From: Gammaproteobacteria bacterium
GTDB taxonomy: Bacteria > Pseudomonadota > Gammaproteobacteria > Pseudomonadales > Azotimanducaceae
Assembly: GCA_028821405.1 (NCBI GenBank)
Contig: JAPPGK010000105.1
Location: 1 to 35,974 of the forward strand
DNA: 35,974 nucleotides
Direction of reading: 5' to 3'
The position numbers were made by a program, and so were the translations under genes. Within the stretch, counting starts at the first letter, position 1, and the number at the start of each line of letters is the position of its first letter. Below the pieces are notes generated by a model. The model saw nothing but the letters and a program-made list of their open reading frames with translations, had not been told where the DNA came from and did not search any database. This document shows positions 1,831 through 34,927 of this stretch, piece after piece.

Positions 1831-2673
1831 CTACTCGACCGGCAACAAGGCTTCCGGCGACCAAAAGCGTTCGGGAATCCTGGTGCCCGCCCGCACAAGT
1901 CGTCCGACCATCAGGACCCCAGGGGAATCGGCCCTTAGGATTGGCTGATTGCGGTGGAGCAACGACGAATGGAAGAGGGCGAACTGCCCGGGTTCGAACA
2001 TCATTTGCCGTTCCCTGTCCTCGACAGAGTCCGGAAACTCCCCAACGTGGCGTTCGAGGCCGGACCGGTCGAATCCCTCGATCGGCAAATGAGATCCACT
2101 GATGTATGCGAATCCCATGGCGGTGACCGCGAGCAGGACGGTGAAGTGATTGTCGGTATTGTAGATGTCGAGTGGAGCATCCGCGTCTTCGAAGAGCCGA
2201 GAGTGCTGCCACGAGGCTTCCCTCGAATCCAGGTCCTTGACGATGAAATTGGATCGCCAAAGCAACAGACCCGCACCGAGGCAGGTCGCGGTCGCCGACC
2301 GCAGGTTGGCGTCCGAGAGTACCTCCCTGATGACCGTTAAGTCCCGATGTCTGTCGACAAGCTCCGGGTTGACGTGCCGATCGTCCTTTTTCGACTCGTT
2401 CAGGCGTAGAACTACCTCGGACAACGCCCCGATGACCGACTTATCTGCCAGATCCAGTGCGCCGGTGATCCCGTTCTCCTCTAGCTGATCCTTCGACATT
2501 CGTCCATGCCTGGCCACGGTCACACTCCCATCATAACGCGCCGGATTCTGGCGCCCCGTGGCACCCTCGTAGATGTCGAGCGTGTGGTGACTAACCAACT
2601 GTTCTACAACGCATTTCAAGTCCTCGTTCGTCAATATGACAGGCAAAAGTAAGGGGAGTACGATTGCACTCAT
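1831..2673 (-). CDS. Phytanoyl-CoA dioxygenase (PhyH) family protein with altered iron-binding motif
   Basis: A 280-residue protein with the late part of the PhyH double-stranded beta helix: WRSNFIVKDL, DNHFTVLLAVT, FAYISGSHLPIEGFD and PGQFALFHSSLLHRNQP (the distal His region). PhyH enzymes use Fe(II) and 2-oxoglutarate held by an HxD...H triad. Where relatives read WHQD this protein reads WQHS (about 2215), so both the first His position and the Asp look changed; an adjacent His might substitute. It could be inactive, use another metal geometry, or halogenate like SyrB2, which lacks the carboxylate. The ATG at 2673 has no clear ribosome site; a TTG at 2634 is possible. It diverges from the TonB receptor gene with only 43 bp between them. 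Confidence 0.75.
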   Translation of the reverse strand: MSAIVLPLLLPVILTNEDLKCVVEQLVSHHTLDIYEGATGRQNPARYDGSVTVARHGRMSKDQLEENGITGALDLADKSVIGALSEVVLRLNESKKDDRHVNPELVDRHRDLTVIREVLSDANLRSATATCLGAGLLLWRSNFIVKDLDSREASWQHSRLFEDADAPLDIYNTDNHFTVLLAVTAMGFAYISGSHLPIEGFDRSGLERHVGEFPDSVEDRERQMMFEPGQFALFHSSLLHRNQPILRADSPGVLMVGRLVRAGTRIPERFWSPEALLPVE

Positions 2674-10225: not shown

Positions 10226-12355
10226 ATGGGACCTGGATACCTAAAGCGGCTGTTGGCCGTCCTGCTCGTGTCGTTTGCCGCTATGCCCGGTCTGGGAGCG
10301 TCTGATTCCGTCACCGGCACCGACGACTTGCCCGTGGGAACCAGTTCAGAGGGTGCCGACGCGTTGATTCGCGCCCGGGATTTTCGCGACGCCGGCAAGA
10401 TCGACGATGCCATCGCCACCTACGAACGATCCCTCGACATCGACCCCTCCCTCGTCGATGCCTGGCTCGAGATGATCCTGCTTCTGACCGAGGTGTCCCA
10501 GCATCGCCGGGCCCTTGAGGCAAGCGAACGCGCCGCCGGGGCACTACCCGACGAACCGAAGATACTCGCGAGGTTGGTGTTCAGCCTGGCGGCATCGGCG
10601 GACGAAGCCATCCGTGACGGCGAACGGGCGGTCGAGGTGGCCGAGCACCTGTTCGAGATCGAGACGGCCTACGTCACCGCGCGACTGGTCGCCGTCTCAC
10701 ATGCCGAGGCCGGACATTGCGAAAACGCGATCGACTGGATGCAGAGAGCGATCTCCCTGGCCCAAGCGAACTGGCAACACCCCTGGGTGCCGGGACCGGT
10801 CGGCCGGGATCAGGTAGTGCAGGCATTGCAGCGGCACCGGAATGACATCGCCAACTCGCCGATTTGCGACATTTCCGCCGCCGAGACGGTGCCCCACGAG
10901 CACCCGGGCCGCGACTACGCGCTGCAACATTGCCAGACCTGCCATCTCTTCGTGGAACCGGAAATGCTCCCCCGGCAGGTCTGGAAGGACTACGTCATCC
11001 CCAACATGGGTGCCTTTCTCGGTATGCACAACGCTGGTTACGACTACGACGTGTTCCCCGGTCGATCCCCCAGGGAACGGGAGATCATCGCCCGTGCCAA
11101 CGTCTATCCAGATGAAGCCCAGGTTCCGAAGGCCGAGTGGGAGGCGCTCGTCGCCTATTTTCTGGATCAGGCGCCCGCAACACCCGCCTCCCGTGAATAC
11201 GATCCCGAAGTCCGGCTCGGCCTCGACCAGTTTCGGGTCGTCGAATTCGGGCCTTCCAGGAAAACACCGGCGATGACGTTGGTTCACATCGACAATGGTC
11301 GGTTGTTCGTGGGTGACTTCGAGCGTTCCGGCCTGACGGTGTTGGACGGACCAGGGCGCGTCGTCCAGGAACTCACTACCCCCCATGCCCCGATCGCGAT
11401 GCGTCACCGCGGTCGCGAACTGTGGGTCACCGACATCGGAAGCGTCTTCCCGTCGGACATGCCGAACGGCAAGCTGCTCGTGTTTCGCGCGGACGACACG
11501 GGTTACGGTCGCTCCGAGACGCGGCTCACCGATCTCCAGCGACCGACGCACACGACCTATGGGGACGTCAATCAGGACGGGATCGAGGATCTCGTCGTAT
11601 CCGAGTTCGGCCACCGCGTCGGCCGACTGGTGTGGTACGAGGGTCGGCGGGAAGGCGGCTATACGCCCCACGTCCTGCTCGACGAACCCGGCGCGATCAC
11701 GTCGTACCTGCACGATCTGGATGGCGACGGACGGAGAGACATCGCGGTCGCGTTCGGGCAGAACCGCGAAGGCATCCACATCTTCTACAATCTCGGCGAC
11801 GGCTCGTTCCGTCACGATTTCGCCCTGCCGCTGCCGCCCACCTACGGCACCAACTTCTTCGCGCTCCATGACTTCAATGGCGACGGGTATGCAGACATTC
11901 TCGCCACGAACGGGGACAACGGCGACTACGTGAGCGAATTTCCGAAGAGCCATCACGGGATCCGGATCTACCTCAACGACGGCGACAACACGTTTGTGGA
12001 GCGGGTCTTCTTCCCCATGTACGGCGCAAGCAAGGCAATTGCCGTGGACTTCGATGCGGATGGCGATCTCGACATTGCGGGGATCGCCATGTTTGCCGAC
12101 TTCATGCGCCACCCCGAGGCGGGCTTCGTCTACCTGGAGAACCAAGGTGATCTGCAGTTCGATGCCGCCCACACGCCCGAAGCCGCCGACGGTCGATGGG
12201 TGGCCATGGACGTCGGCGACATGGACGGTGACGAGGACATCGACATCGTTCTCGGATCCTTCATCGAAGGACCGGGTGCCGTGCCGACGGTGCTCATGCA
12301 ACGGTGGAGAGATCTGGAACGTCCGCTTCTCTATCTCGAAAACCAGTTGAAATGA
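10226..12355 (+). CDS. Secreted TPR - haem-binding (CxxCH) - VCBS/FG-GAP repeat protein
   Basis: A 709-residue exported protein. The parts are a signal peptide (KRLLAVLLVSFAAMPGLGA), TPR-like helices (about residues 45-180: FRDAGKIDDAIATYERSLDIDP), and a single haem-attachment motif CQTCH at 236-240 with a possible Met ligand in NMGAFLGMH. A C-terminal seven-bladed-propeller type region follows (about 330-700), with calcium loops such as DVNQDGIEDL, DLDGDGRRDI, DFNGDGYADI, DFDADGDLDI and DMDGDEDIDI. FG-GAP/VCBS proteins bind ligands or surfaces outside the membrane; the haem suggests electron transfer. The gene starts 9 bp after the phosphotransferase-like gene and closes the operon. The combination of all three parts in one chain is not one I know from a characterised enzyme. 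The function is unknown. Confidence 0.8.
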   Translation: MGPGYLKRLLAVLLVSFAAMPGLGASDSVTGTDDLPVGTSSEGADALIRARDFRDAGKIDDAIATYERSLDIDPSLVDAWLEMILLLTEVSQHRRALEASERAAGALPDEPKILARLVFSLAASADEAIRDGERAVEVAEHLFEIETAYVTARLVAVSHAEAGHCENAIDWMQRAISLAQANWQHPWVPGPVGRDQVVQALQRHRNDIANSPICDISAAETVPHEHPGRDYALQHCQTCHLFVEPEMLPRQVWKDYVIPNMGAFLGMHNAGYDYDVFPGRSPREREIIARANVYPDEAQVPKAEWEALVAYFLDQAPATPASREYDPEVRLGLDQFRVVEFGPSRKTPAMTLVHIDNGRLFVGDFERSGLTVLDGPGRVVQELTTPHAPIAMRHRGRELWVTDIGSVFPSDMPNGKLLVFRADDTGYGRSETRLTDLQRPTHTTYGDVNQDGIEDLVVSEFGHRVGRLVWYEGRREGGYTPHVLLDEPGAITSYLHDLDGDGRRDIAVAFGQNREGIHIFYNLGDGSFRHDFALPLPPTYGTNFFALHDFNGDGYADILATNGDNGDYVSEFPKSHHGIRIYLNDGDNTFVERVFFPMYGASKAIAVDFDADGDLDIAGIAMFADFMRHPEAGFVYLENQGDLQFDAAHTPEAADGRWVAMDVGDMDGDEDIDIVLGSFIEGPGAVPTVLMQRWRDLERPLLYLENQLK

Positions 12356-12680: not shown

Positions 12681-12928
12681 AGAGTGCCGCCACTCGGGCA
12701 CCCATACCATTCGGAGCGCGTTCGGAACATCGGTCGCTGCTGCCATTAGCGGACCCCACTCCTGAAACGACCCAAGAGCGTTTGAACGCGGTCACGAACC
12801 AACGCCGCGACACGCTCCGAGACAGGATGCGGCATCTCGATTCCATCGATCTTCGCGAGGGTGGTCTCCAGCAGTTCGGCTGCTCGGCGCACCACCAACG
12901 GCGCCCCGAGTCCCGCGTCTTTCGACAG
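12681..12928. repeat. 248-bp direct repeat, right copy (within and beyond hipA 3' end)
   Basis: This is the intact counterpart of 54-301. It includes the hipA C-terminal codons (12746-12928) and about 65 bp downstream of its stop. Same orientation as the left copy, so homologous recombination between them would delete the intervening 12.4 kb. Confidence 0.9.
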
Positions 12929-13990
12929 TCGACGTAGATCATCCGGTGCGACGCGATCCGCGATACGCTGTGCGCCGAGGCGCATCGCCATCTCGCGGGC
13001 GAGCTCCGGATAGGCAACCGTACTGACGAGGTCGTAGAACGGCGCGAGACGAGTCGTCCCATCGGTGCGGTGGAGCAGTGCGAAGTTCTTGCCGTGGGCA
13101 TCGTTGTTGCCGATGGCGAGATTGAAGGCCACCGCATCGACTAGCGCACCGAGATCCAGGACAGGTGCTGCCGACACGTTGCGGAGAAGCTCGAAACACC
13201 GCCTTAAGTTGGGTCCTCCCTCGGCTTGGTACTTGCGCTCGGGAGGAAAGCCCAGAGCTTGACAGAAGTCCTCCTGATGGATTCTGCCGACGCGTTCGCC
13301 ATCGACACTACGATCGAAGCGCTCGACGACAAGGTAGTCGATATCGTCCGCCCGGCCCACGCAGAATGCCGTCGTCGGCAATCCGAGGGCTGCGGCAAGC
13401 GCGAGACAGAACGCCTCGTTGTGGACAAGCCCGTCGAAATCCGGAACCGCCGGCTTGACGATGTGCGTACTGGCGGTGCTGCCCAACGGTAGCGCCACTC
13501 GCCCGTCGACGATCCGTACCGGCAGTTTGTCCTGGGCACCCGCCAACGACAGGCGCAGACCCCGTGAACCGGCGAGCAGCGGTCGTTGTCTCAGTTCGCG
13601 CAACGTCCGGGCGAACTCCTCGTCGTCCAGCACCCGCGTTTGTTCGTCGTTTGCGCCGTGCGGCGTTCCTTCGGGCAGTAGACTCACGGCCCCGGCGCAT
13701 TCACCGCCAATCCGTTCCAAGAGTGCGAAGTCGTTCGTCTCGCTGACGCCGAGGATCCGGCTGATCAACTCCCGACTGCGCCCTTCCGGCAGCACGCCAC
13801 CGAAGAACGGCCTGCAATCCCGGTGCACAAATCGCTCCTCCCGAAGCGGCAACGACAGTGAAAGCGGCACGGCGTCGGGGCGCGCGAGCCACGCGTCGAC
13901 ATACCGGAAGGACGTCAGGCCACTGTCGCGAAGAACCAATCGGCCAGCCAGGTGCCCATGCAGGTAGACGTCGAGGGAGCGCACGATCAA
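12746..13990 (-). CDS. hipA: HipA-type serine/threonine kinase toxin
   Basis: A 414-residue kinase of the HipA family, the toxin of a type II system. In characterised members it phosphorylates glutamyl-tRNA synthetase (or other tRNA synthetases) and produces dormancy. The N-terminal HipA_N domain covers about 1-110 (PLSLSLPLREERF, FFGGVLPEG). The kinase core has SLAGAQDKLPV as the ATP-binding segment with the regulatory Ser (about residues 150-160), HIVKP, the catalytic loop GNNDAHGKNFALL with Asp297, and the metal-binding APFYDLVST. The length is close to E. coli HipA (440). The start is TTG at 13990, overlapping the hipB stop by four bases (TTGA), so the two are translationally coupled. Its 3' end is duplicated at 54-301. 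Confidence 0.93.
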   Translation of the reverse strand: MIVRSLDVYLHGHLAGRLVLRDSGLTSFRYVDAWLARPDAVPLSLSLPLREERFVHRDCRPFFGGVLPEGRSRELISRILGVSETNDFALLERIGGECAGAVSLLPEGTPHGANDEQTRVLDDEEFARTLRELRQRPLLAGSRGLRLSLAGAQDKLPVRIVDGRVALPLGSTASTHIVKPAVPDFDGLVHNEAFCLALAAALGLPTTAFCVGRADDIDYLVVERFDRSVDGERVGRIHQEDFCQALGFPPERKYQAEGGPNLRRCFELLRNVSAAPVLDLGALVDAVAFNLAIGNNDAHGKNFALLHRTDGTTRLAPFYDLVSTVAYPELAREMAMRLGAQRIADRVAPDDLRRLSKDAGLGAPLVVRRAAELLETTLAKIDGIEMPHPVSERVAALVRDRVQTLLGRFRSGVR

Positions 13991-21060: not shown

Positions 21061-21807
21061 TCAATCGTCCATCACCCGCAGGTGGGATTCCACCGACGGC
21101 GGCGCCATGAGTCGTCGTTGTCGATCGGTCGCCTCGGGGAAGCCTGCGGGATCGTACGGCCGCTTGGCCCACGTCGAATGGGGCGGGCTGTACTTGTACA
21201 GAAGAGTGCGGCGTTCGTGCTCGGCGTTCCAGGCCGTGGTGCCATGGATCAGCGCTTCGGTGAAGATCAGGACGTCGCCCGCGGCCATGGTCGGCTGGAC
21301 AACCCAGTCCTCCCTGCGTTCGAAGCGCGCGACGTCTCTCGGCATGTGCTGGAGGAAATTCGACTTGTGGCTGCCGGGGACGCAGGCGAAGCCGCCGTCG
21401 CCGGGGCCGACATCCGTGAGGTTCCAGGTGGCCACGGTCAGACCGTTGCGCATCACCCCGTCGTGGTACCGGTACCAGTGGTCGGACTCGTACCGCCACG
21501 GGCCGCCGTGGAGGGTGTTCGAACCAGCGCCCTTGCGCATGAAGATGCAGTAGTCGTGGTCGATGCGCAGGCGAGAGCCGACCAGCTCGACGAGATAGGG
21601 CAGCAGCTTGTCGTGATCCATGAGGTCGACGAATTGCTGCCCCCAGGAGGAGATGCCGTTGAACCGTCGGAATGGCCCGTCCTCCGGCTGCCGGGGCCAG
21701 ATTTCGTCCGCGTGTCGGATGAGTTCCTCGCACTCGTCCCGGCTCAATACGTGGGGTACGACGACGAATCCGCGGAGGTCGAATAGGAACTTCTCCTCGT
21801 CCGTCAG
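21061..21807 (-). CDS. Phytanoyl-CoA dioxygenase (PhyH) family protein, unusual start
   Basis: A protein of about 248 residues of the PhyH Fe(II)/2-oxoglutarate-dependent oxygenase family. Typical segments are LHGGPWRYESD, VATWNLTDVGPGDGGFACVPGSH and AGDVLIFTEALIHGTTAW (distal His). The N-terminal sequence TDEEKFLFDLRGFVVVPHVLS is what this family normally begins with, but it lies upstream of the first conventional start codon (TTG 21747). No ATG, GTG or TTG is in frame between there and the TAG near 21873. The best fit is a CTG start at 21807, or an ATG lost by mutation. The substrate is unknown. The gene diverges from the toxin-antitoxin pair. Confidence 0.8.
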   Translation of the reverse strand: MTDEEKFLFDLRGFVVVPHVLSRDECEELIRHADEIWPRQPEDGPFRRFNGISSWGQQFVDLMDHDKLLPYLVELVGSRLRIDHDYCIFMRKGAGSNTLHGGPWRYESDHWYRYHDGVMRNGLTVATWNLTDVGPGDGGFACVPGSHKSNFLQHMPRDVARFERREDWVVQPTMAAGDVLIFTEALIHGTTAWNAEHERRTLLYKYSPPHSTWAKRPYDPAGFPEATDRQRRLMAPPSVESHLRVMDD

Positions 21808-26719: not shown

Positions 26720-28099
26720 CTAGTACTCGTGCTTCTGGCTCTGGGCAATGCGCTCAAGAATCCTAAGACGCAGTGCATCCGCATCGCTCCGGTACTCGCT
26801 TGACCCCGCAAGATTGTGTTCCTCGTTGGGATCGTTCCCGCGGTCGAACAGCATGTAGGTCTCACCCTCCTTGTTGAGGGCAATCTTCCACTCGTCGTTC
26901 ATCAGCATGAACTCGCCCATGATCTCCGACAAGGCATCGTCGCGATGCCCACTGCCGTCGAGGGCACCTGTCAGGGACTTGCCGAACTGGCGATACTCGA
27001 GTTCGCCGCCAGCAAGCTCCACCAGCGTTGGCCCCAGGTCGACGGTCTCTGAGGGCGAGTCGTTCACGATCCCCGAATACTCGGCGCCCGGTGTCCTGAC
27101 AATCAGCGGCACCCGAACCGCGCCATCGTAGAAGTTGCTCTTGGAAATCAGACCATGATCGCCATTCATCTCCCCGTGATCCGAGGTGAATGCGATCACC
27201 GTTGAATCCATTTCCCCCCGTTCCTCGATTACCGCGAGAATCTCGCCAATCTGGTCGTCGATCAGGGAGACGCTGCCGGCATAGTCAGCGCGCATGGCAC
27301 CCACTTCCTCTGTCGTGAAGGGTGGAAAGCGTTGCATGCTCTCGAACCTTCGGTCGATCTGTCCCCTCGGCCTGGGCCCGTCGATGTCGTTCATCGCGGG
27401 TGGAGGCATCGACTCGGGATCGTAACGGCTCGCGTAGGGTTCCGGGGTGTCCCACGGCTGATGCGGACCTCCCCAGCTGACCCAGCAGAACCAGGGCTCG
27501 TCCCGATCATAGGATGACAGGTAACGCTTGGCCTGCTGTCCGACATAAACGTCGTAGTAGTCCGGGAGCGGTAGGACGGAAGGGCGAACTACCCACGCCT
27601 TGTTGGACGACCGCTCCTTGAAGTCCTCGCGGTACGCGTCGAGCAGACCCTTGTCCTTCCACAACGCCGTCATGTGGCTCATCCCGCTCGTGGAGGCACG
27701 AGGGCCGCCGACCTCGTCCACGTCGTCTAGGCCTAAGGCGTGCAGCAGATCCTCCTTGTCTCGGAGGTCACAGCGGCCGTGCGGGTGCAGATGCGTCTTG
27801 CCGAACAGGCTTGTGCGATAACCGCGGTTTCGGATCGCCCGCATCCAGTTGTCGGCGTCGGCCGGGACGGTATAGGGGATGTGGCCCCAGACACCATTGT
27901 TGTGGGGGTAGGCGCCGGTCGCCAGCGTCACCCGCGCGGGCACGCAGAGCGGCGACGTCGTGACGCAGTTGCTGAAGCGCACGCCCTCGGCGGCGATCCG
28001 ATCCAGATTCGGCGTGTCGACCCAGCCGCCGCTGCAACCCATCGCATCCCAGCGCTGCTGATCGGTCATCAGGAAGAGGATGTTGTTCATATTGCCCAT
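26720..28099 (-). CDS. Type I sulfatase (formylglycine-dependent)
   Basis: A 459-residue sulfatase. NILFLMTDQQRWDAMG supplies the first metal-binding Asp pair. The signature SPLCVPARVTLATG contains CxPxR with Cys52, to be converted to formylglycine by a maturase. SLFGKTHLHPHG, WGGPHQPWDTP, and the second metal site AFTSDHGEMNGDHG complete the alkaline-phosphatase fold. The C-terminal region covers sulfatase subdomain 2 (EWKIALNKEGETYMLFDRGNDP). No signal peptide is visible, so it probably acts in the cytoplasm on a small sulfate ester. ATG 28099 is chosen; upstream in-frame residues overlap the divergent gene. It is 42 bp from the divergent PhyH gene. Confidence 0.9.
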   Translation of the reverse strand: MGNMNNILFLMTDQQRWDAMGCSGGWVDTPNLDRIAAEGVRFSNCVTTSPLCVPARVTLATGAYPHNNGVWGHIPYTVPADADNWMRAIRNRGYRTSLFGKTHLHPHGRCDLRDKEDLLHALGLDDVDEVGGPRASTSGMSHMTALWKDKGLLDAYREDFKERSSNKAWVVRPSVLPLPDYYDVYVGQQAKRYLSSYDRDEPWFCWVSWGGPHQPWDTPEPYASRYDPESMPPPAMNDIDGPRPRGQIDRRFESMQRFPPFTTEEVGAMRADYAGSVSLIDDQIGEILAVIEERGEMDSTVIAFTSDHGEMNGDHGLISKSNFYDGAVRVPLIVRTPGAEYSGIVNDSPSETVDLGPTLVELAGGELEYRQFGKSLTGALDGSGHRDDALSEIMGEFMLMNDEWKIALNKEGETYMLFDRGNDPNEEHNLAGSSEYRSDADALRLRILERIAQSQKHEY

Positions 28100-28141
28100 G
28101 CTCTTACCATAATGAAGCCGACCGCGACCCGAAACAGCTAC

Positions 28142-28960
28142 ATGGACGACGACATAACCTTTTATCCGTCTCCACCCGAACGGTCGAAGACGCTGTCGAG
28201 CGAGCACATCCGGCGATTCAACGAGGAAGGGTTCATTCGGCCGCTAGATGCGCTAACTGGCGACGAGGTTGGGTCGGCCCGTTCCTACTTCGAATCATTG
28301 CTCTCCCGGATGCAGGCAATGGAAGACGGGCGCAACACCTACGCCCTCGACGGCTATCACCTGCGTTGCCGTGGCATCTGGGAGATGGCGCTACATCCCA
28401 AGATCCTCGACTACGTCGAGGACCTGCTCGGGCCCGACTTCGTGTGCTGGTCCACGCACTACTTCTGCAAGATGGGCCGCGACGAGAGACGGGTTCCCTG
28501 GCATCAGGATGCGACGTACTGGCCGGTGCGTCCGACGAAAACCGTCACCGTCTGGCTCGCCATCGACGACGTCGACGCCGGCAACTCGCCGCTTCGGTTC
28601 GTTAGGGGTAGTCATCGCCTCGGCGCCGTGGAATGGCGCAAGGCCGAAGGAGACATCGTCCTATACCAAGAGGTGCCCGACGCCGAGCGCTACGGCGAGC
28701 CGGTGGACAACGTGCTCAAAGCCGGTCAGGTCTCGATTCACACGAGCACGCTCATCCACGGTTCCGAACCGAACCGTTCGGAGCGCCGCCGCTGTGGATT
28801 GGCGCTGCGCTACATACCGTCGAGTTGCGGCGCGGTGAAGGGCGCTGAACGGGTACTGAATATCGGCATTCCGTGTCGCGGCGGTCTCGGCAGATGGCGT
28901 CGGAACGAACCGCCGGAAGGCGACGATCTCACCCCCTTGCATCGACACTACCGGGATTGA
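28142..28960 (+). CDS. Phytanoyl-CoA dioxygenase (PhyH) family Fe(II)/2-oxoglutarate oxygenase
   Basis: A 272-residue protein with a complete facial triad: PWHQDATYWPVRP gives His121 and Asp123, and HTSTLIHGSEPNRSERRR gives the distal His206 and the 2-oxoglutarate-binding Arg. VTVWLAIDDVDAGNSPLRFVRGSH is the usual central strand pair. These enzymes hydroxylate small molecules. No clear ribosome site precedes ATG 28142; ATG 28112 would add ten residues. It diverges from the sulfatase, so both may respond to the same signal and act on one sulfated or methylated compound, which is an inference. Confidence 0.88.
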   Translation: MDDDITFYPSPPERSKTLSSEHIRRFNEEGFIRPLDALTGDEVGSARSYFESLLSRMQAMEDGRNTYALDGYHLRCRGIWEMALHPKILDYVEDLLGPDFVCWSTHYFCKMGRDERRVPWHQDATYWPVRPTKTVTVWLAIDDVDAGNSPLRFVRGSHRLGAVEWRKAEGDIVLYQEVPDAERYGEPVDNVLKAGQVSIHTSTLIHGSEPNRSERRRCGLALRYIPSSCGAVKGAERVLNIGIPCRGGLGRWRRNEPPEGDDLTPLHRHYRD

Positions 28961-29090: not shown

Positions 29091-29144
29091 TGGTACGATT
29101 GACGCTGCAGAATACAACTGCGAACCGCAAAGGGGATGTCCGAA

Positions 29145-30095
29145 ATGTCCATCGAGGTGAATCCAATTGACGCCACTTTGGGTGCCGTCGTCACCGGCGT
29201 TGATCTCGCCACGCTCGACGACGACACGTGGGAGGAGATCCACGACGCGTTTCTGAAATACGGGTTGCTGGTGTTCCCCGGTCAGCACAATCTCGACGAT
29301 GAGTCCCAAGGGGCGTTCGCGCTTCGCTTCGGAAAGACGGAGAAGCTGTATCCGAAGCAGGCCAAGCCGATCGCGAGGTTCTCGAACCAGAAGGCTGACG
29401 GCACCCTGGCGCAGCCCGGACAGCAGCAGTACCAAATGCTGAAAGGCAACGAAGGTTGGCATACCGACAGCACGTACATGCCACTCGCCGCCAAGGCCGG
29501 CATGTTGATGGCCCTGGTCGTGCCGCCCGACGGCGGGGAGACCGAGTTCGCGGACATGCGTGCCGCGTACGACGAACTGGACGACGCCACCAAGGCGCAA
29601 CTCGAGGGGTTGTCCGCCTACCACTCCCTGTACCACTCCCAATCGAAGTTGGGCTACACCCACACGACCGACAACCAGTACGGCTTCCACGACAAGGGCG
29701 CACCGCTGCGCCCCGTCATCAAGACGCACCCCGAGACCGGCAGAAAGTCGATCTACACCGGGCGTCACGCCTACGGGGTTCCGGGGATGAGCGAAGAAGA
29801 GTCGGACGCACTGCTCACCACGCTCCTGGACGATGCCTGTCAGCCGCCGCGCACCTATCGTCATTCGTGGACCGTTGGCGACCTCGTGGTCTGGGACAAC
29901 CGTTGCGTGATGCACCGGGCGCGACCCTACGACCCGAACTACACCCGGGTATTGCGGGCGTCACGGATCTCCGGCGAGCCGGAGTCCGAGTTGGCGCCGA
30001 CCTTCGCCGATCCGCGAGCGGACGCGTTCCACCCGTCGTCGTCGAACGAATCGTCGTTTAACCAACCGCGGGAAACGGCCGCGAGCGTCCAATAG
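29145..30095 (+). CDS. TauD/TfdA-family Fe(II)/2-oxoglutarate dioxygenase
   Basis: A 316-residue taurine/2,4-D dioxygenase family enzyme. The N-terminus SIEVNPIDATLGAVVTGVDL is typical. GNEGWHTDSTYMPLAAKAGM holds His106 and Asp108, YTGRHAYGVPGM is the substrate-loop region, and VWDNRCVMHRARPYDPNY gives the distal His257 and nearby Arg. The triad is intact. Family members release sulfite from taurine, break down herbicides or hydroxylate amino acids; the substrate is unknown. ATG 29145 is favoured over ATG 29136 because AAGGGG at 29130-29135 is about nine bases from the former and abuts the latter. The C-terminal tail (SSSNESSFNQPRE) is probably disordered. Confidence 0.9.
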   Translation: MSIEVNPIDATLGAVVTGVDLATLDDDTWEEIHDAFLKYGLLVFPGQHNLDDESQGAFALRFGKTEKLYPKQAKPIARFSNQKADGTLAQPGQQQYQMLKGNEGWHTDSTYMPLAAKAGMLMALVVPPDGGETEFADMRAAYDELDDATKAQLEGLSAYHSLYHSQSKLGYTHTTDNQYGFHDKGAPLRPVIKTHPETGRKSIYTGRHAYGVPGMSEEESDALLTTLLDDACQPPRTYRHSWTVGDLVVWDNRCVMHRARPYDPNYTRVLRASRISGEPESELAPTFADPRADAFHPSSSNESSFNQPRETAASVQ

Positions 30096-31229: not shown

Positions 31230-31751
31230 CTACGATGACGTCAGGATGTCGATGGCTTGTTCGCAGGCCGCGTCGGCGCGTTGCTCGACCTCTTGTGGCG
31301 TACAGCTACCTAGCGGGTGGTCCAGGATGACGAACGGGTAGTCCGGCAAGCCCATCATCCGGGCGATGTTGCGGGCCGTGACCTCGAACGGCGCGGTGCA
31401 CAGAACCACTGCCCGTTTGCCGGTCTGCTCGAAGGTGATGCCGTCATGCAAACTGCACGTCGAGCAACTGCCTCAGTCGCCTGCGGCGGTGATGAGGTAG
31501 TCGCATTCCGGCGACAGATTCGTCAACAACTCCGCCGGTGCGGGTGCCGACGCGTTGTTCTTGGCGGCCATGGGCAGCACCTTGCCGCCGAAGCGAGCCT
31601 GCAGTCGAGCGGCCGTCTCGGTGAGCAAGGCGTCGCCGTTCTGCTTGTGGTTCCACAAGAGGCCGATGGTCCGCCCTTCAAGGCTCGCAAGCGCGGGTGC
31701 CCGGACTGCCCGTCCTTCCTTGGCGGGAACCGTGGGATCAACGAGTCTCAT
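31230..31751 (-). CDS. UGSC-family selenoprotein (in-frame TGA read as selenocysteine)
   Basis: A protein of 173 residues if the TGA at 31473-31475 is read as selenocysteine-93. The sequence around it is LITAAGD-U-GSCSTCSLHDG, matching the motif for which the UGSC family is named: U in place of Cys, then GSC, then STC. Upstream (LEGRTIGLLWNHKQNGDALL, MAAKNNASAPAP) and downstream (KRAVVLCTAPFEVTARNIARMMG, ILDHPLGSC) the frame is open and continues the same family fold to the TAG at 31230. The start ATG 31751 has an ideal AGGAGGAAGG site, 16 bp after the partner gene's stop. Uxx C and CxxC spacing suggest a redox role; its substrate is unknown. Standard callers would split it into two false short genes. 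Requires selA/B/C/D elsewhere. Confidence 0.87.
31441..31463 (-). promoter_or_regulatory. Candidate bacterial SECIS element
   Basis: Directly after the in-frame TGA the minus-strand RNA can fold as UCG-A-CGUGCA [GUU] UGCAUG-A-CGG. This gives six apical pairs (one wobble), an A-A mismatch, then three lower pairs, with a three-base loop starting GU. Nineteen bases separate the UGA from the loop; E. coli fdhF has about 18 and also presents G-U in its loop. This is the place and form SelB requires. Predicted by eye only. Confidence 0.6.
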
Positions 31752-31767: not shown

Positions 31768-32817
31768 TCAACAATCGATGCAGACGCCAATGGCCTGGGT
31801 TTGCATGATGGAGCCGCGCCCGCGACTCCAAGACGGGATGAACGACGAATGTCCACCGGCATCGCCGCCGCCCACGGTCACGAGGATGTCGTCCGGCCCG
31901 ATGCCGCGGTGACAGTCCTCGCGGCCCTGGCGCCGGTATCCGCGGTCAAGCTTGCCGAGGCGTTCGATCGCCGGGCGCGGGTGCTTGGCATGCTCGAAGA
32001 GGTACGCTCGCACCTGGGCCTTCGTCCAGCCCGGTCGGGCGACGATCTCGGCATGTTCCGGCGAGAGCACGACCACGCTCTGGCCGGTACTGATGCAGCC
32101 GTAGTTGGCCATGGCGTTCGCCATCGTATCGAGGATCGCTTCCGGGGTGTTGCCGCCGTGGTTCTCCACGTTGCAGAAACCGGCACCCGCGAAGACCGTA
32201 ACGGAACTGACACCGTCGGGGTAGCCGAACTCTTCGCACAACGGCGGCCAGGGATTCCGATCCGCCCGTTCGGCGATGCAGAAGCTGTATTTGCCGGGGT
32301 TTCCCTGCGTCGACTTGTCGGCGATGCCGGGCACGATCTTGAACACGTTCATGAGGGTTAGGCGGATCGACCGGCCGATGGTCGCGTTGGCGCGGTTTCC
32401 CGGCCCGAACAGGTTGACGCCTGCGTTCATGCCGATCTCGTCGACGATCGGCCCGCTGACGATCAACAGGTGGCCGGAACCGCCGGTGCTGACCGTGCTG
32501 CCGTGGAAATTGAAGGGTTCCCGGTCCATGGCTTCGAAGGCCGCGACGATGATCGGGAAGTACTCGGGCAGACAGCCCGCCATGACGGCGTTCACGGCTG
32601 CGGCCTGTAGCGTCAATTCCAGCCCCGTCGCTGGGTGATGGGCGATGACGGTCTCGGCGGGGCGGCCTTCCATTGCCAGCATGGTCCGAACCCGATTCTG
32701 TTCCGGTGGAACGACCGGCAAGCCGTCGGTCCAACCCTGCTCGTAGCAGTAGTCGATGGCTTCGAGGAGATCGTCGCCGATCTCGTGGGGCGTCGGCGTT
32801 TGGGACTCGTTGTCCAT
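31768..32817 (-). CDS. UGSC-associated protein, unknown function
   Basis: A 349-residue protein lying directly before the selenoprotein. I recall homologous proteins next to UGSC genes but know no tested function. Visible parts are YEQGWTDGLPVVPP near the N-terminus, then VSTGGSGHLLIVSGPIVDEI, MNAGVNLFGPGNRANATIGR with glycine- and asparagine-rich loops, GNPGKYSFCIAERAD, VTVFAGAGFCNVENHGGNTPE, and a C-terminus ending GVCIDC. The CxxC tail and several other cysteines fit redox exchange with the selenoprotein, or metal binding. ATG 32817 follows the preceding gene's stop by two bases; ATG 32841 is possible. It reads as a single soluble protein with no signal peptide. Confidence 0.75.
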   Translation of the reverse strand: MDNESQTPTPHEIGDDLLEAIDYCYEQGWTDGLPVVPPEQNRVRTMLAMEGRPAETVIAHHPATGLELTLQAAAVNAVMAGCLPEYFPIIVAAFEAMDREPFNFHGSTVSTGGSGHLLIVSGPIVDEIGMNAGVNLFGPGNRANATIGRSIRLTLMNVFKIVPGIADKSTQGNPGKYSFCIAERADRNPWPPLCEEFGYPDGVSSVTVFAGAGFCNVENHGGNTPEAILDTMANAMANYGCISTGQSVVVLSPEHAEIVARPGWTKAQVRAYLFEHAKHPRPAIERLGKLDRGYRRQGREDCHRGIGPDDILVTVGGGDAGGHSSFIPSWSRGRGSIMQTQAIGVCIDC

Positions 32818-32819
32818 GG

Positions 32820-33839
32820 TCAGTCCCAGACCTTCTCCCATCGCCCGCTTTCCACTGAACGATACATCGCGAGCGCCGTTCGCAGTTCGCCCAGGGAAAA
32901 CGCCGGCGATGCGTCGAGTTCCTTGCCGTCGAGCACCGCGCAGCTGAAGTCGTGCAGTTCCACGCCGTAGCTTGCCGCCTTGCCCTCGAATGCGCTCATC
33001 ACCGCGAGGCCGCCCGGATGCTCGCCGTTGTAGAGCATCAGTCGTCCGTCGCGGCCACGCTCCAACACCAACTCACCGTCGGTGCCCGTGATCCGGAAGT
33101 CCTCCACCGGGGCAACGGCACCGGTGCTTTGCAGGGCGTCAAAGGTGCCGACGACGCCACTCTCGAACCTGAAAATGGCGTGGGCCGAGGACTCGCCCTC
33201 CATGTCCTCGACGTGCCGAGCGGTTGCGCCGACAACCTCGTCGATCTCGCCGAGCATCATCCGCATCGGGCGGATCCAGTGGGCGCCGCCGTCGATGGAA
33301 ATCCCGCCGCCGGCGCGGGCCAACTCGTAGCGCCAAGGTATGACGCCGGGCGGGACGTTCAACGGGTCGTAGAAGCAGGCCCGGGCGGTGATGACCTCGC
33401 CGATGGCACCGGCGTCGATGAGTTCCCTCGCTTTCTGCACATCGGTCCAATACTGGGCCTGCTCCGCGATCATGAACACCGTCCCCGCCTGTTCCGCCGC
33501 GGCGAGGATTCGCTCGCAGCTTGCCAGGTTGTGGGCCATGGGTTTTTCGAGGCAGACGTGCTTGCCCGCAGCGAAGGACTCGACGGCCGCCTGTTCGTGC
33601 AGATCGTGGGGCAGCATGATGTCCACGGCATCGAAGTCGCCTTCCGCCAAGGCTTCGGTCAGCGATGCGAAAGCCGGTGCGCCGGTGCGTTCCGCCATCG
33701 AGGCCACGCTTTCGGGATCGGTGTCGACAACGGCGGTCACGTCGATCCGCCGGGCGTGGTACCGGATGCCTCGCCAATGGGCGCGGGCGATGCCGCCGCA
33801 CCCGACGAAAGCCATCGTCAACCGGTCTTCATTGGCCAT
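32820..33839 (-). CDS. Gfo/Idh/MocA-family NAD(P)-dependent oxidoreductase
   Basis: A 339-residue oxidoreductase. The Rossmann motif is MAFVGCGGIARAHW (GxGGIA, about residues 9-22). VVDTDPES is the cofactor-ribose acidic strand end, AVDIMLPHDLH and GKHVCLEKPMAHN give the conserved EKP with the catalytic Lys, and GGGISIDGGAHWI the substrate-side Asp and His of the family (GGGxxxDxGxH). Members oxidise sugars, inositol or sugar acids. ATG 33839 overlaps the preceding stop (TGATG). It sits between the enolase-superfamily gene and the UGSC pair in one operon, so a shared substrate or its oxidation product is likely. Confidence 0.9.
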   Translation of the reverse strand: MANEDRLTMAFVGCGGIARAHWRGIRYHARRIDVTAVVDTDPESVASMAERTGAPAFASLTEALAEGDFDAVDIMLPHDLHEQAAVESFAAGKHVCLEKPMAHNLASCERILAAAEQAGTVFMIAEQAQYWTDVQKARELIDAGAIGEVITARACFYDPLNVPPGVIPWRYELARAGGGISIDGGAHWIRPMRMMLGEIDEVVGATARHVEDMEGESSAHAIFRFESGVVGTFDALQSTGAVAPVEDFRITGTDGELVLERGRDGRLMLYNGEHPGGLAVMSAFEGKAASYGVELHDFSCAVLDGKELDASPAFSLGELRTALAMYRSVESGRWEKVWD

Positions 33840-34927
33840 CAACGAGCCGCGAGCCTCGCCAAGGCGGCTTCGTTCAACTCGATACCGAACCCGGGCTTGT
33901 CGGTCAGTACCATGTCGCCTTCCTTCGGCAGCACATCCTCGCCGTAGAGTTCCCCCACGTCGTCGAGGGGCCCGGAGAATTCGATGGAGAACTCGTGCGG
34001 GCGGGTCGCGTTCTGCACAGTGGCATAGACGTGCAGCGACGCCATGGAGTTGATGCCGGCCTGCGGGCTATGGGGCATGACCGGTTTGTTTAGCGTGGTT
34101 GCCAGCTCGTAGATGCGCTTGACCTCGCTAGGGCCGCCGGCGTTCAGGATATCGGGCTGCAGGATGTCCGGATCGCCGAGCAGGACGAGGTGATGGAACC
34201 ACCAGCGGAACGCGTCCTGCTCGCCGGCGGAGACGGCAACATCCAAAGCGTCGCTGATCTGCTTCAGGCCAGGTAGGTCGTAGTGCGGAATGGGCTCCTC
34301 GAAATGGTCGATGCCGAGGGCTTCGAAGCGTCGACCTTGCTGGATCGCCGTGGACACCGAATAGCCGTTGTTGGCGTCGAAGCCGAGGTATTCGCCGCCC
34401 GCGAGGAATTCGCGCGCGGCCTTGAACAGTTGGTAGTCCTTCTCGGGGTCGATGTCCTGGCGCCAGCCCCGCCAGTCCATGCGGATCTTGAACGCCCGGA
34501 AACCCCGTTCCCAACCGTCCTTGACGAGTGCCAGCATCTCGGCAGGCTGCATTCGCCAGCCGGAGCCCGTGCTCCAGTAGAGGGGAATCGTGGTTCGCCG
34601 GGCACCGCCCATCAGGAGGTGGACCGGTAGACCCGTATCCTTGCCGAAGAGATCCCACAAGGCCACGTCGACGACGCCAACCACCCAACCTGGCAGCTTG
34701 TAGAAGCGCTCGTCGCGACCGAGGGCAAAGGTCTCCCAATGGCGGTCGACGAGCCGAGGGTCTTCGCCGACCAGGGCGGGTTTGATGGCCCTCTCGAGGT
34801 AGGCGTCGAAGACGGCATTGTTTCGGCCGGGCACCTCGGCCCATCCCTCGACGCCGGCATTGGTCTCAATCCGGAGGAGCCCTTTGCCAAGGGTCAAGGG
34901 CGTACAGGTGATGTCGGTGATCTTCAT
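33839..34927 (-). CDS. Enolase-superfamily (mandelate racemase/muconate lactonizing type) enzyme
   Basis: A 362-residue enzyme. The N-terminal capping domain covers about 1-115. The barrel has FKIRMDW (Lys of the KxK-type base), GFDANNGYS (metal Asp), FEEPIPHYD (metal Glu), SAGEQDAF (metal Glu) and PVMPHSPQAG with the His of the His-Asp dyad used by mandelate-racemase-group dehydratases. All three metal ligands are visible. It probably dehydrates an acid sugar, or racemises an alpha-hydroxy acid; the exact one is not readable. First gene of the selenoprotein operon (34927 to 31230), diverging from the SDR gene by 127 bp. Confidence 0.9.
   Translation of the reverse strand: MKITDITCTPLTLGKGLLRIETNAGVEGWAEVPGRNNAVFDAYLERAIKPALVGEDPRLVDRHWETFALGRDERFYKLPGWVVGVVDVALWDLFGKDTGLPVHLLMGGARRTTIPLYWSTGSGWRMQPAEMLALVKDGWERGFRAFKIRMDWRGWRQDIDPEKDYQLFKAAREFLAGGEYLGFDANNGYSVSTAIQQGRRFEALGIDHFEEPIPHYDLPGLKQISDALDVAVSAGEQDAFRWWFHHLVLLGDPDILQPDILNAGGPSEVKRIYELATTLNKPVMPHSPQAGINSMASLHVYATVQNATRPHEFSIEFSGPLDDVGELYGEDVLPKEGDMVLTDKPGFGIELNEAALARLAAR

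Follow-up and report, generated by a model that had tools for sequence, protein, structure and literature searches.

Two open reading frames on the minus strand, separated only by a TGA codon at 31473-31475, raise the question of whether this codon ends a gene or is read as selenocysteine (Sec), and, in the latter case, what the resulting protein does. The window, i.e. the whole stretch of gammaproteobacterial DNA analysed, is 35,974 nucleotides long. When the sequence was re-read, the coordinates, strand, frame and single in-frame TGA (31475-31473) were as given in the preliminary description. Translation from the ATG at 31751 to the stop at 31232-31230 yields 173 residues (31230-31751, minus strand), with the TGA at codon 93 as the sole interruption. 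The Sec context reads AAGD-U-GSCSTCSLHD; the family signature GD-U-GSCSTC claimed across the TGA is seen at codon 93, with Sec93 as the leading residue of a UxxCxxC motif. The ribosome-binding site claimed for the upstream ATG is present as AGGAGG at 31762-31757 (minus strand), 5 nt from the ATG at 31751. The frame is open on both sides of the TGA, as described, but to say that a start site is lacking for the second half was too strong, since an in-frame TTG at 31451 formally opens a 73-aa ORF. For the half before the TGA, a mechanical caller places the start at the upstream ATG 31862, giving 129 aa.

The whole window protein matches the Pfam family UGSC (PF24696) with E 1.3e-50 and 172.4 bits (cut-off 25), and each half matches it separately (7.3e-19 before the TGA, 4.6e-23 after it). 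The NCBIfam model UGSC NF041046 is matched by the whole protein at 130.2 bits against a cut-off of 125. With both halves and the whole assigned to the family and GSC following the TGA, the claim of a UGSC-family selenoprotein holds; the remark that routine annotation would hide the gene is less true today, because NCBI has this curated model. Relatives were collected by a DNA motif scan of genome contigs, any TGN codon being allowed at the Sec position, which gave at least 117 loci; Sheuella amnicola, Vineibacter terrae and Reyranella massiliensis are among the named carriers. The Sec-site codon is TGA in 115 of the 117 listed loci and TGC in the other 2; an additional cysteine relative (L025) came from a search of genomes of the phylum. 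Homologues that span the TGA, and others with cysteine at the Sec site, which the preliminary description proposed to look for, thus exist, and a different stop with the N-terminal half alone conserved is not the pattern found. An alignment (A2) was made of 84 UGSC proteins, i.e. the window's and 83 of the 117 listed, after short and near-identical rows had been dropped. All 84 match PF24696, and P6, K36, K64, F122, H145 and P146, which lie outside the fetching motif, are invariant among them. The nearest of the 83 relatives aligned with the window protein is L123 (83% identical).

The window genome (4.77 Mb, 122 contigs, 97.6% complete) carries selA, selB and selC (tRNA-Sec) as neighbours on contig C60, with selD on contig C28, so that all four genes proposed for checking are present, each over its cut-off. 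ARAGORN reads the tRNA on C60 as SeC with anticodon tca. Two further UGSC genes with an in-frame TGA are found in this genome, on contigs C33 and C1, and the family occurs in 5 of 398 sampled genomes of the phylum, the window genome included. Also, a PrdB-like protein (L153; contig C88, near 10680-10811) has an in-frame TGA at a UPVC motif; the genome is therefore predicted to encode one or more additional selenoproteins of the selenoprotein-B type.

A bacterial SECIS region is predicted at 31428-31475 (minus strand) from folding and family-wide tests, with the apical hairpin at about 31459-31445, 19 nt past the UGA. Its GUU loop provides the G in the apical loop of a post-UGA hairpin by which a bacterial selenoprotein is recognized. 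In 116 TGA genes the 39 nt after the TGA were compared with synonymous redrawings of their codons, four stretches of the same genes serving as controls. The post-TGA stretch folds better than expected (mean z -1.56; p ≤ 0.05 in 51 of 116); the control stretches gave mean z of -0.26, -0.55, -0.20 and -0.33, with p ≤ 0.05 in 11/115, 19/115, 4/115 and 10/114. The window's own stretch is not significant when taken alone, 25% of synonymous shuffles folding as well. The start of the loop, nt 23-24, is GU in all 110 distinct sequences, and the loop serine codon is AGU in 95 of 95 serine-bearing sequences; AGY makes up 35% of the serine codons elsewhere in these genes. Nucleotides 21 and 27, both third codon positions, are paired in 110 of 110 (C-G in 84, G-C in 26), against 64% in shuffles, 0 of 2000 of which reached the observed value. 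This two-state change accompanies amino-acid changes on both sides, and shared descent may be part of its cause. The remaining upper-stem pairs say little because they hardly vary; the lower stem, which is paired in 35-64% of the 110 distinct sequences, shows no conservation. On the Pfam and NCBIfam matches, the four sel genes, the TGA in relatives and the conserved hairpin, the window frame is confirmed by sequence comparison as a genuine UGSC-family selenoprotein and one complete protein.

The stop of the next gene upstream lies 16 nt from the UGSC ATG at 31751. This gene (31768-32841, minus strand) encodes a 357-aa protein with conserved Cys90 and Cys188 which, judged from its occurrence across sequenced loci, is a nearly constant partner of UGSC. 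The window's partner matched no family in Pfam or NCBIfam, and in an alignment of 73 homologues no stray family was matched by more than 3 of them. A partner homologue is present at 105 of the 117 listed UGSC loci: upstream on the same strand in 78, downstream in 14, fused to the UGSC end in 8, fused with a further copy in 2, in another frame overlapping UGSC in 2 and on the opposite strand in 1. In the upstream layout the distance from the end of the partner frame to the motif is 259-441 nt in 77 of 78 loci and 1208 nt in one. The near relative L099 has its partner downstream on the opposite strand rather than upstream, which reflects either local rearrangement or the assembly.

Twelve listed loci are without a partner; in 11 of these, one flank of the motif is no more than 33-414 nt long. 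L082 is the only one of the twelve with long flanks (4516 and 3484 nt) in which no partner was found; its genome holds 7 partner genes, elsewhere or unplaced relative to the UGSC gene. Partner genes are present in 10 of the 12 genomes concerned (36 matches). At L036, L050 and L076 the same UGSC gene adjoins a partner once more of the contig is read, so that the pair is seen at 108 of the 117 listed loci. Twelve partner loci were read from the 36 matches: 11 contain a UGSC profile match, one of them weak (3.6e-5) and at the end of the locus, and the remaining one is 75 nt away from the end of its contig. The 3 UGSC and 3 partner genes found in the window's own genome form three adjacent pairs of different layout, i.e. 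separate genes (window), a UGSC-partner fusion (C1) and a thioredoxin-like-partner fusion plus UGSC (C33). L129 is another example of a natural fusion.

At 34 of the 98 listed loci with a visible partner start, a profile search found the partner preceded, in one fused protein, by a thioredoxin-like domain; the profile had been trained on 23 of these 34 cases, those with CxxC and a cis-Pro-like pattern. At L043 the domain is a separate upstream frame; the window's partner is without a fused thioredoxin domain. Four fused domains were compared with Pfam, of which two passed a curated cut-off (AhpC-TSA, Redoxin) and two matched weakly. On a tree of the 84 UGSC proteins the thioredoxin-like layout is found in one 30-row clade (support 100/99), where 24 rows have it, 4 are unseen and 2 are without. 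A deep branch (96/88) has the UGSC-first layouts, fused or not, all to one side; loci with overlapping frames, of which there are two, were counted among them.

By profile comparison, UGSC is distantly homologous to the GrdB/PrdB selenoproteins, the Sec residues of the two families falling on each other. Searched singly against NCBIfam, the 84 UGSC proteins matched TIGR01917 GrdB in 38 cases (best 1.1e-5), GrdF in 23, TIGR01918 in 11, PrdB in 5 and GrdH in 3; unrelated families matched at most 3 of the 84. Among 10 members shown singly, 4 have a GrdB match and 6 have none, and the window's own protein did not match the GrdB models of NCBIfam at E up to 10. The Pfam GRDB model was matched by none of the 84, and in the same Pfam scan unrelated families reached 6, 4 and 3 proteins at E 0.02-0.06; with unrelated families matching up to 6 of 84, weak matches alone prove little. 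A GrdB/PrdB profile built from 38 proteins, 30 of which carry U and 8 C at the aligned position, aligned with UGSC in hhalign at E 9.9e-7 and probability 91.2%, the UGSC motif falling on the Sec motif. The controls gave 0.45 (reversed UGSC), 0.46 (reversed GrdB/PrdB), 0.067 (UGSC with thioredoxin-like domains) and 0.65 (UGSC with partner), and the GrdB/PrdB profile gave 0.15 with the partner and 0.026 with thioredoxin-like domains, all hhalign E-values being those of single comparisons. An earlier profile of 7 rows had given E 4.8e-4 and probability 32%. From the other side, the GrdB-like L167 (462 bits to TIGR01918) matches the UGSC model over residues 334-373, with its Sec at residue 347, at E 0.0099; this value is for the whole match, and no single stretch passes that limit alone. 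UGSC proteins are not GrdB/PrdB orthologues proper: the best scores of the members shown singly stay below the curated cut-offs (24.6 bits against 602.2 for TIGR01917, 19.7 against 65.45 for TIGR01918, 14.3 against 300 for TIGR04483), and the window protein is without a match.

The partner was also compared with the GrdE/PrdA pyruvoyl subunit (PF09338 rows), at E 0.33; the profile used was weak, having 4 rows, one of which was in the wrong frame. As the partner has no detectable GrdE/PrdA similarity, either the substrate must be activated in another way or the analogy holds only in part. In 43 genomes reached via 44 of the 117 listed UGSC loci, GrdB/PrdB-like PF07355 matches occur in 31; for the PF09338 pyruvoyl subunit, 23 of those genomes gave 3 matches over the cut-off and 1 below it. 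With PF07355 common and PF09338 rare, it may be that many PrdB-like proteins do not need the known partner. On L167 the Pfam PF07355 GRDB profile matches 346 residues and ends just before the Sec at 347; this model may have been built from TGA-cut proteins.

UGSC and its partner probably constitute a reductase of two parts that is driven by thioredoxin and acts in the manner of GrdB/PrdB, because the partner is nearly constant and sometimes fused, thioredoxin-like domains are fused to it, and the Sec domain appears to descend from that of GrdB/PrdB. We infer a physical complex, reductase chemistry and thioredoxin as the electron donor. In glycine reductase, Sec acts as a nucleophile, together with pyruvoyl chemistry. 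The TGA is read as selenocysteine to give the 173-residue UGSC protein. By the proposed route, this protein would contribute the catalytic Sec, located in a UxxCxxC motif at a helix start, within an alpha/beta domain homologous to the GrdB/PrdB Sec domain. The partner would most likely bind or activate the substrate. Attack of Sec on the substrate would then drive out a leaving group, by analogy with glycine and proline reductase; the selenium adduct would be resolved by Cys96/Cys99, and the enzyme restored by thioredoxin. More tentatively, and with distinctly less confidence than in the two-part reductase itself, the pair might be a third selenoprotein-B reductase branch beside the glycine and proline types, spread through proteobacteria and several other phyla, pyruvoyl-independent, with a partner of no named family, and with thioredoxin supplying the electrons for reductive cleavage of a carbon-heteroatom bond in a carboxylic substrate.

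The substrate is perhaps a small carboxylic acid or sugar acid, judged only from the neighbouring catabolic genes. In the window, UGSC and its partner are in a probable operon with a Gfo/Idh/MocA oxidoreductase (32820-33842, minus strand), which overlaps the partner gene by 22 nt by mechanical starts, and with an enolase-superfamily (mandelate racemase / sugar-acid dehydratase-like) protein (33839-34927, minus strand), which overlaps the next frame by 4 nt. Among the 117 listed loci both genes are kept beside UGSC only in L123, whose Gfo/Idh/MocA homologue is 83% identical to the window's; this suggests lineage-specific use rather than a general substrate. Catabolic enzymes are abundant in the window (1831-2673, 21061-21747, 26720-28207, 29136-30095), namely a TauD-family dioxygenase, a sulfatase and two phytanoyl-CoA-type-like dioxygenases, the latter two read by eye. 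Also by eye, a minus-strand frame at 23-535 contains a close likeness of a stretch near the end of a 414-aa protein (12746-13990, minus strand) and is perhaps a fragment of a second copy.

Other explanations of the locus were weighed against the two-part reductase. If the TGA were a true stop or a sequencing error, the locus would be a pseudogene or two genes; the formal TTG start at 31451 and a window hairpin that folds no better than a quarter of its synonymous shuffles would fit this. The TGA at the same place in nearly all listed relatives, the full Sec machinery in the genome, the SECIS conservation across the family and the invariance, in 84 proteins, of the residues on either side of the TGA leave this reading with almost no probability. 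UGSC might instead have a thioredoxin-like fold and act as an oxidoreductase of the thiol-disulfide or peroxide type, its partner being a substrate protein or accessory, as the UxxC motif and the thioredoxin-like domains on about a third of the partners with visible starts would suggest. The predicted UGSC model (pLDDT 95.2), in which strands alternate with helices, places Sec at the start of a helix that follows strand 85-91, and the profile match to thioredoxin-like domains falls far short of that to GrdB/PrdB, a weak test given the small thioredoxin profile. A thioredoxin fold for UGSC, suggested in 2008, is not supported by the model or the profiles, and we consider this explanation unlikely. 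That a fold is missing from a list of matches proves nothing by itself.

Detoxification of metals or organometals has been discussed for other selenoprotein families, and the UGSC pair might act likewise with Sec as the ligand; Sec and two cysteines could bind soft metals. Read by eye, the 15 frame clusters present in at least 4 listed loci comprise the partner, several shadow frames and others that look like CoA-transferase, thiolase, acyl-CoA dehydrogenase, TauD-like dioxygenase, solute receptor and selA/selB; these recurrent neighbours look catabolic or Sec-related, not like metal genes. We consider detoxification less likely still than the thiol-disulfide explanation.

The UGSC family, its Sec and one fusion domain are already in print, in passages of PMC2398784 and PMC9312934, and a 2026 review, in the part concerned, places UGSC among families of largely uncharacterized function (PMC13188914). 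A literature search, with most subscription papers outside its scope, did not find the near-constant partner or the GrdB/PrdB kinship of UGSC stated; no priority is claimed. Together, the partner and this kinship turn an "unknown redox protein" into a testable claim of two-protein, thioredoxin-dependent reduction, and the probable operon of the window, with its sugar-acid dehydratase-like and Gfo/Idh-like genes, suggests first candidate substrates.

Compared with known systems, the window protein shares with the UGSC family (PF24696/NF041046) the full-length match, the Sec in UGSC, the length and the conserved residues; it differs in nothing essential and is a member. The Global Ocean Sampling study also reported a domain fused to UGSC, Unknown_1, which is likely the same as the window-type partner; the passages of that study concerned (PMC2398784) do not describe the pairing as separate genes. 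The pyruvoyl subunit GrdE/PrdA of the known reductases has no detectable kinship to the UGSC partner. With GrdB/PrdB (TIGR01917, TIGR01918, NF040794, TIGR04483) UGSC has in common a homologous Sec domain and UxxCxxC; the GrdB model has 431 positions against the 173 aa of UGSC, which matches only its Sec-bearing end. In glycine reductase, according to the part of the review concerned, the UxxCxxC motif belongs to GrdB and thioredoxin is the reductant (PMC13188914). The fluoroacetate operon of Cloacibacillus differs from the UGSC pair in being anaerobic and in having a radical SAM protein and an antiporter, and its abstract names no UGSC (PMC10838667); in that abstract GrdB-related proteins are proposed to act on a non-amino-acid substrate, a precedent for relatives of GrdB with other substrates.
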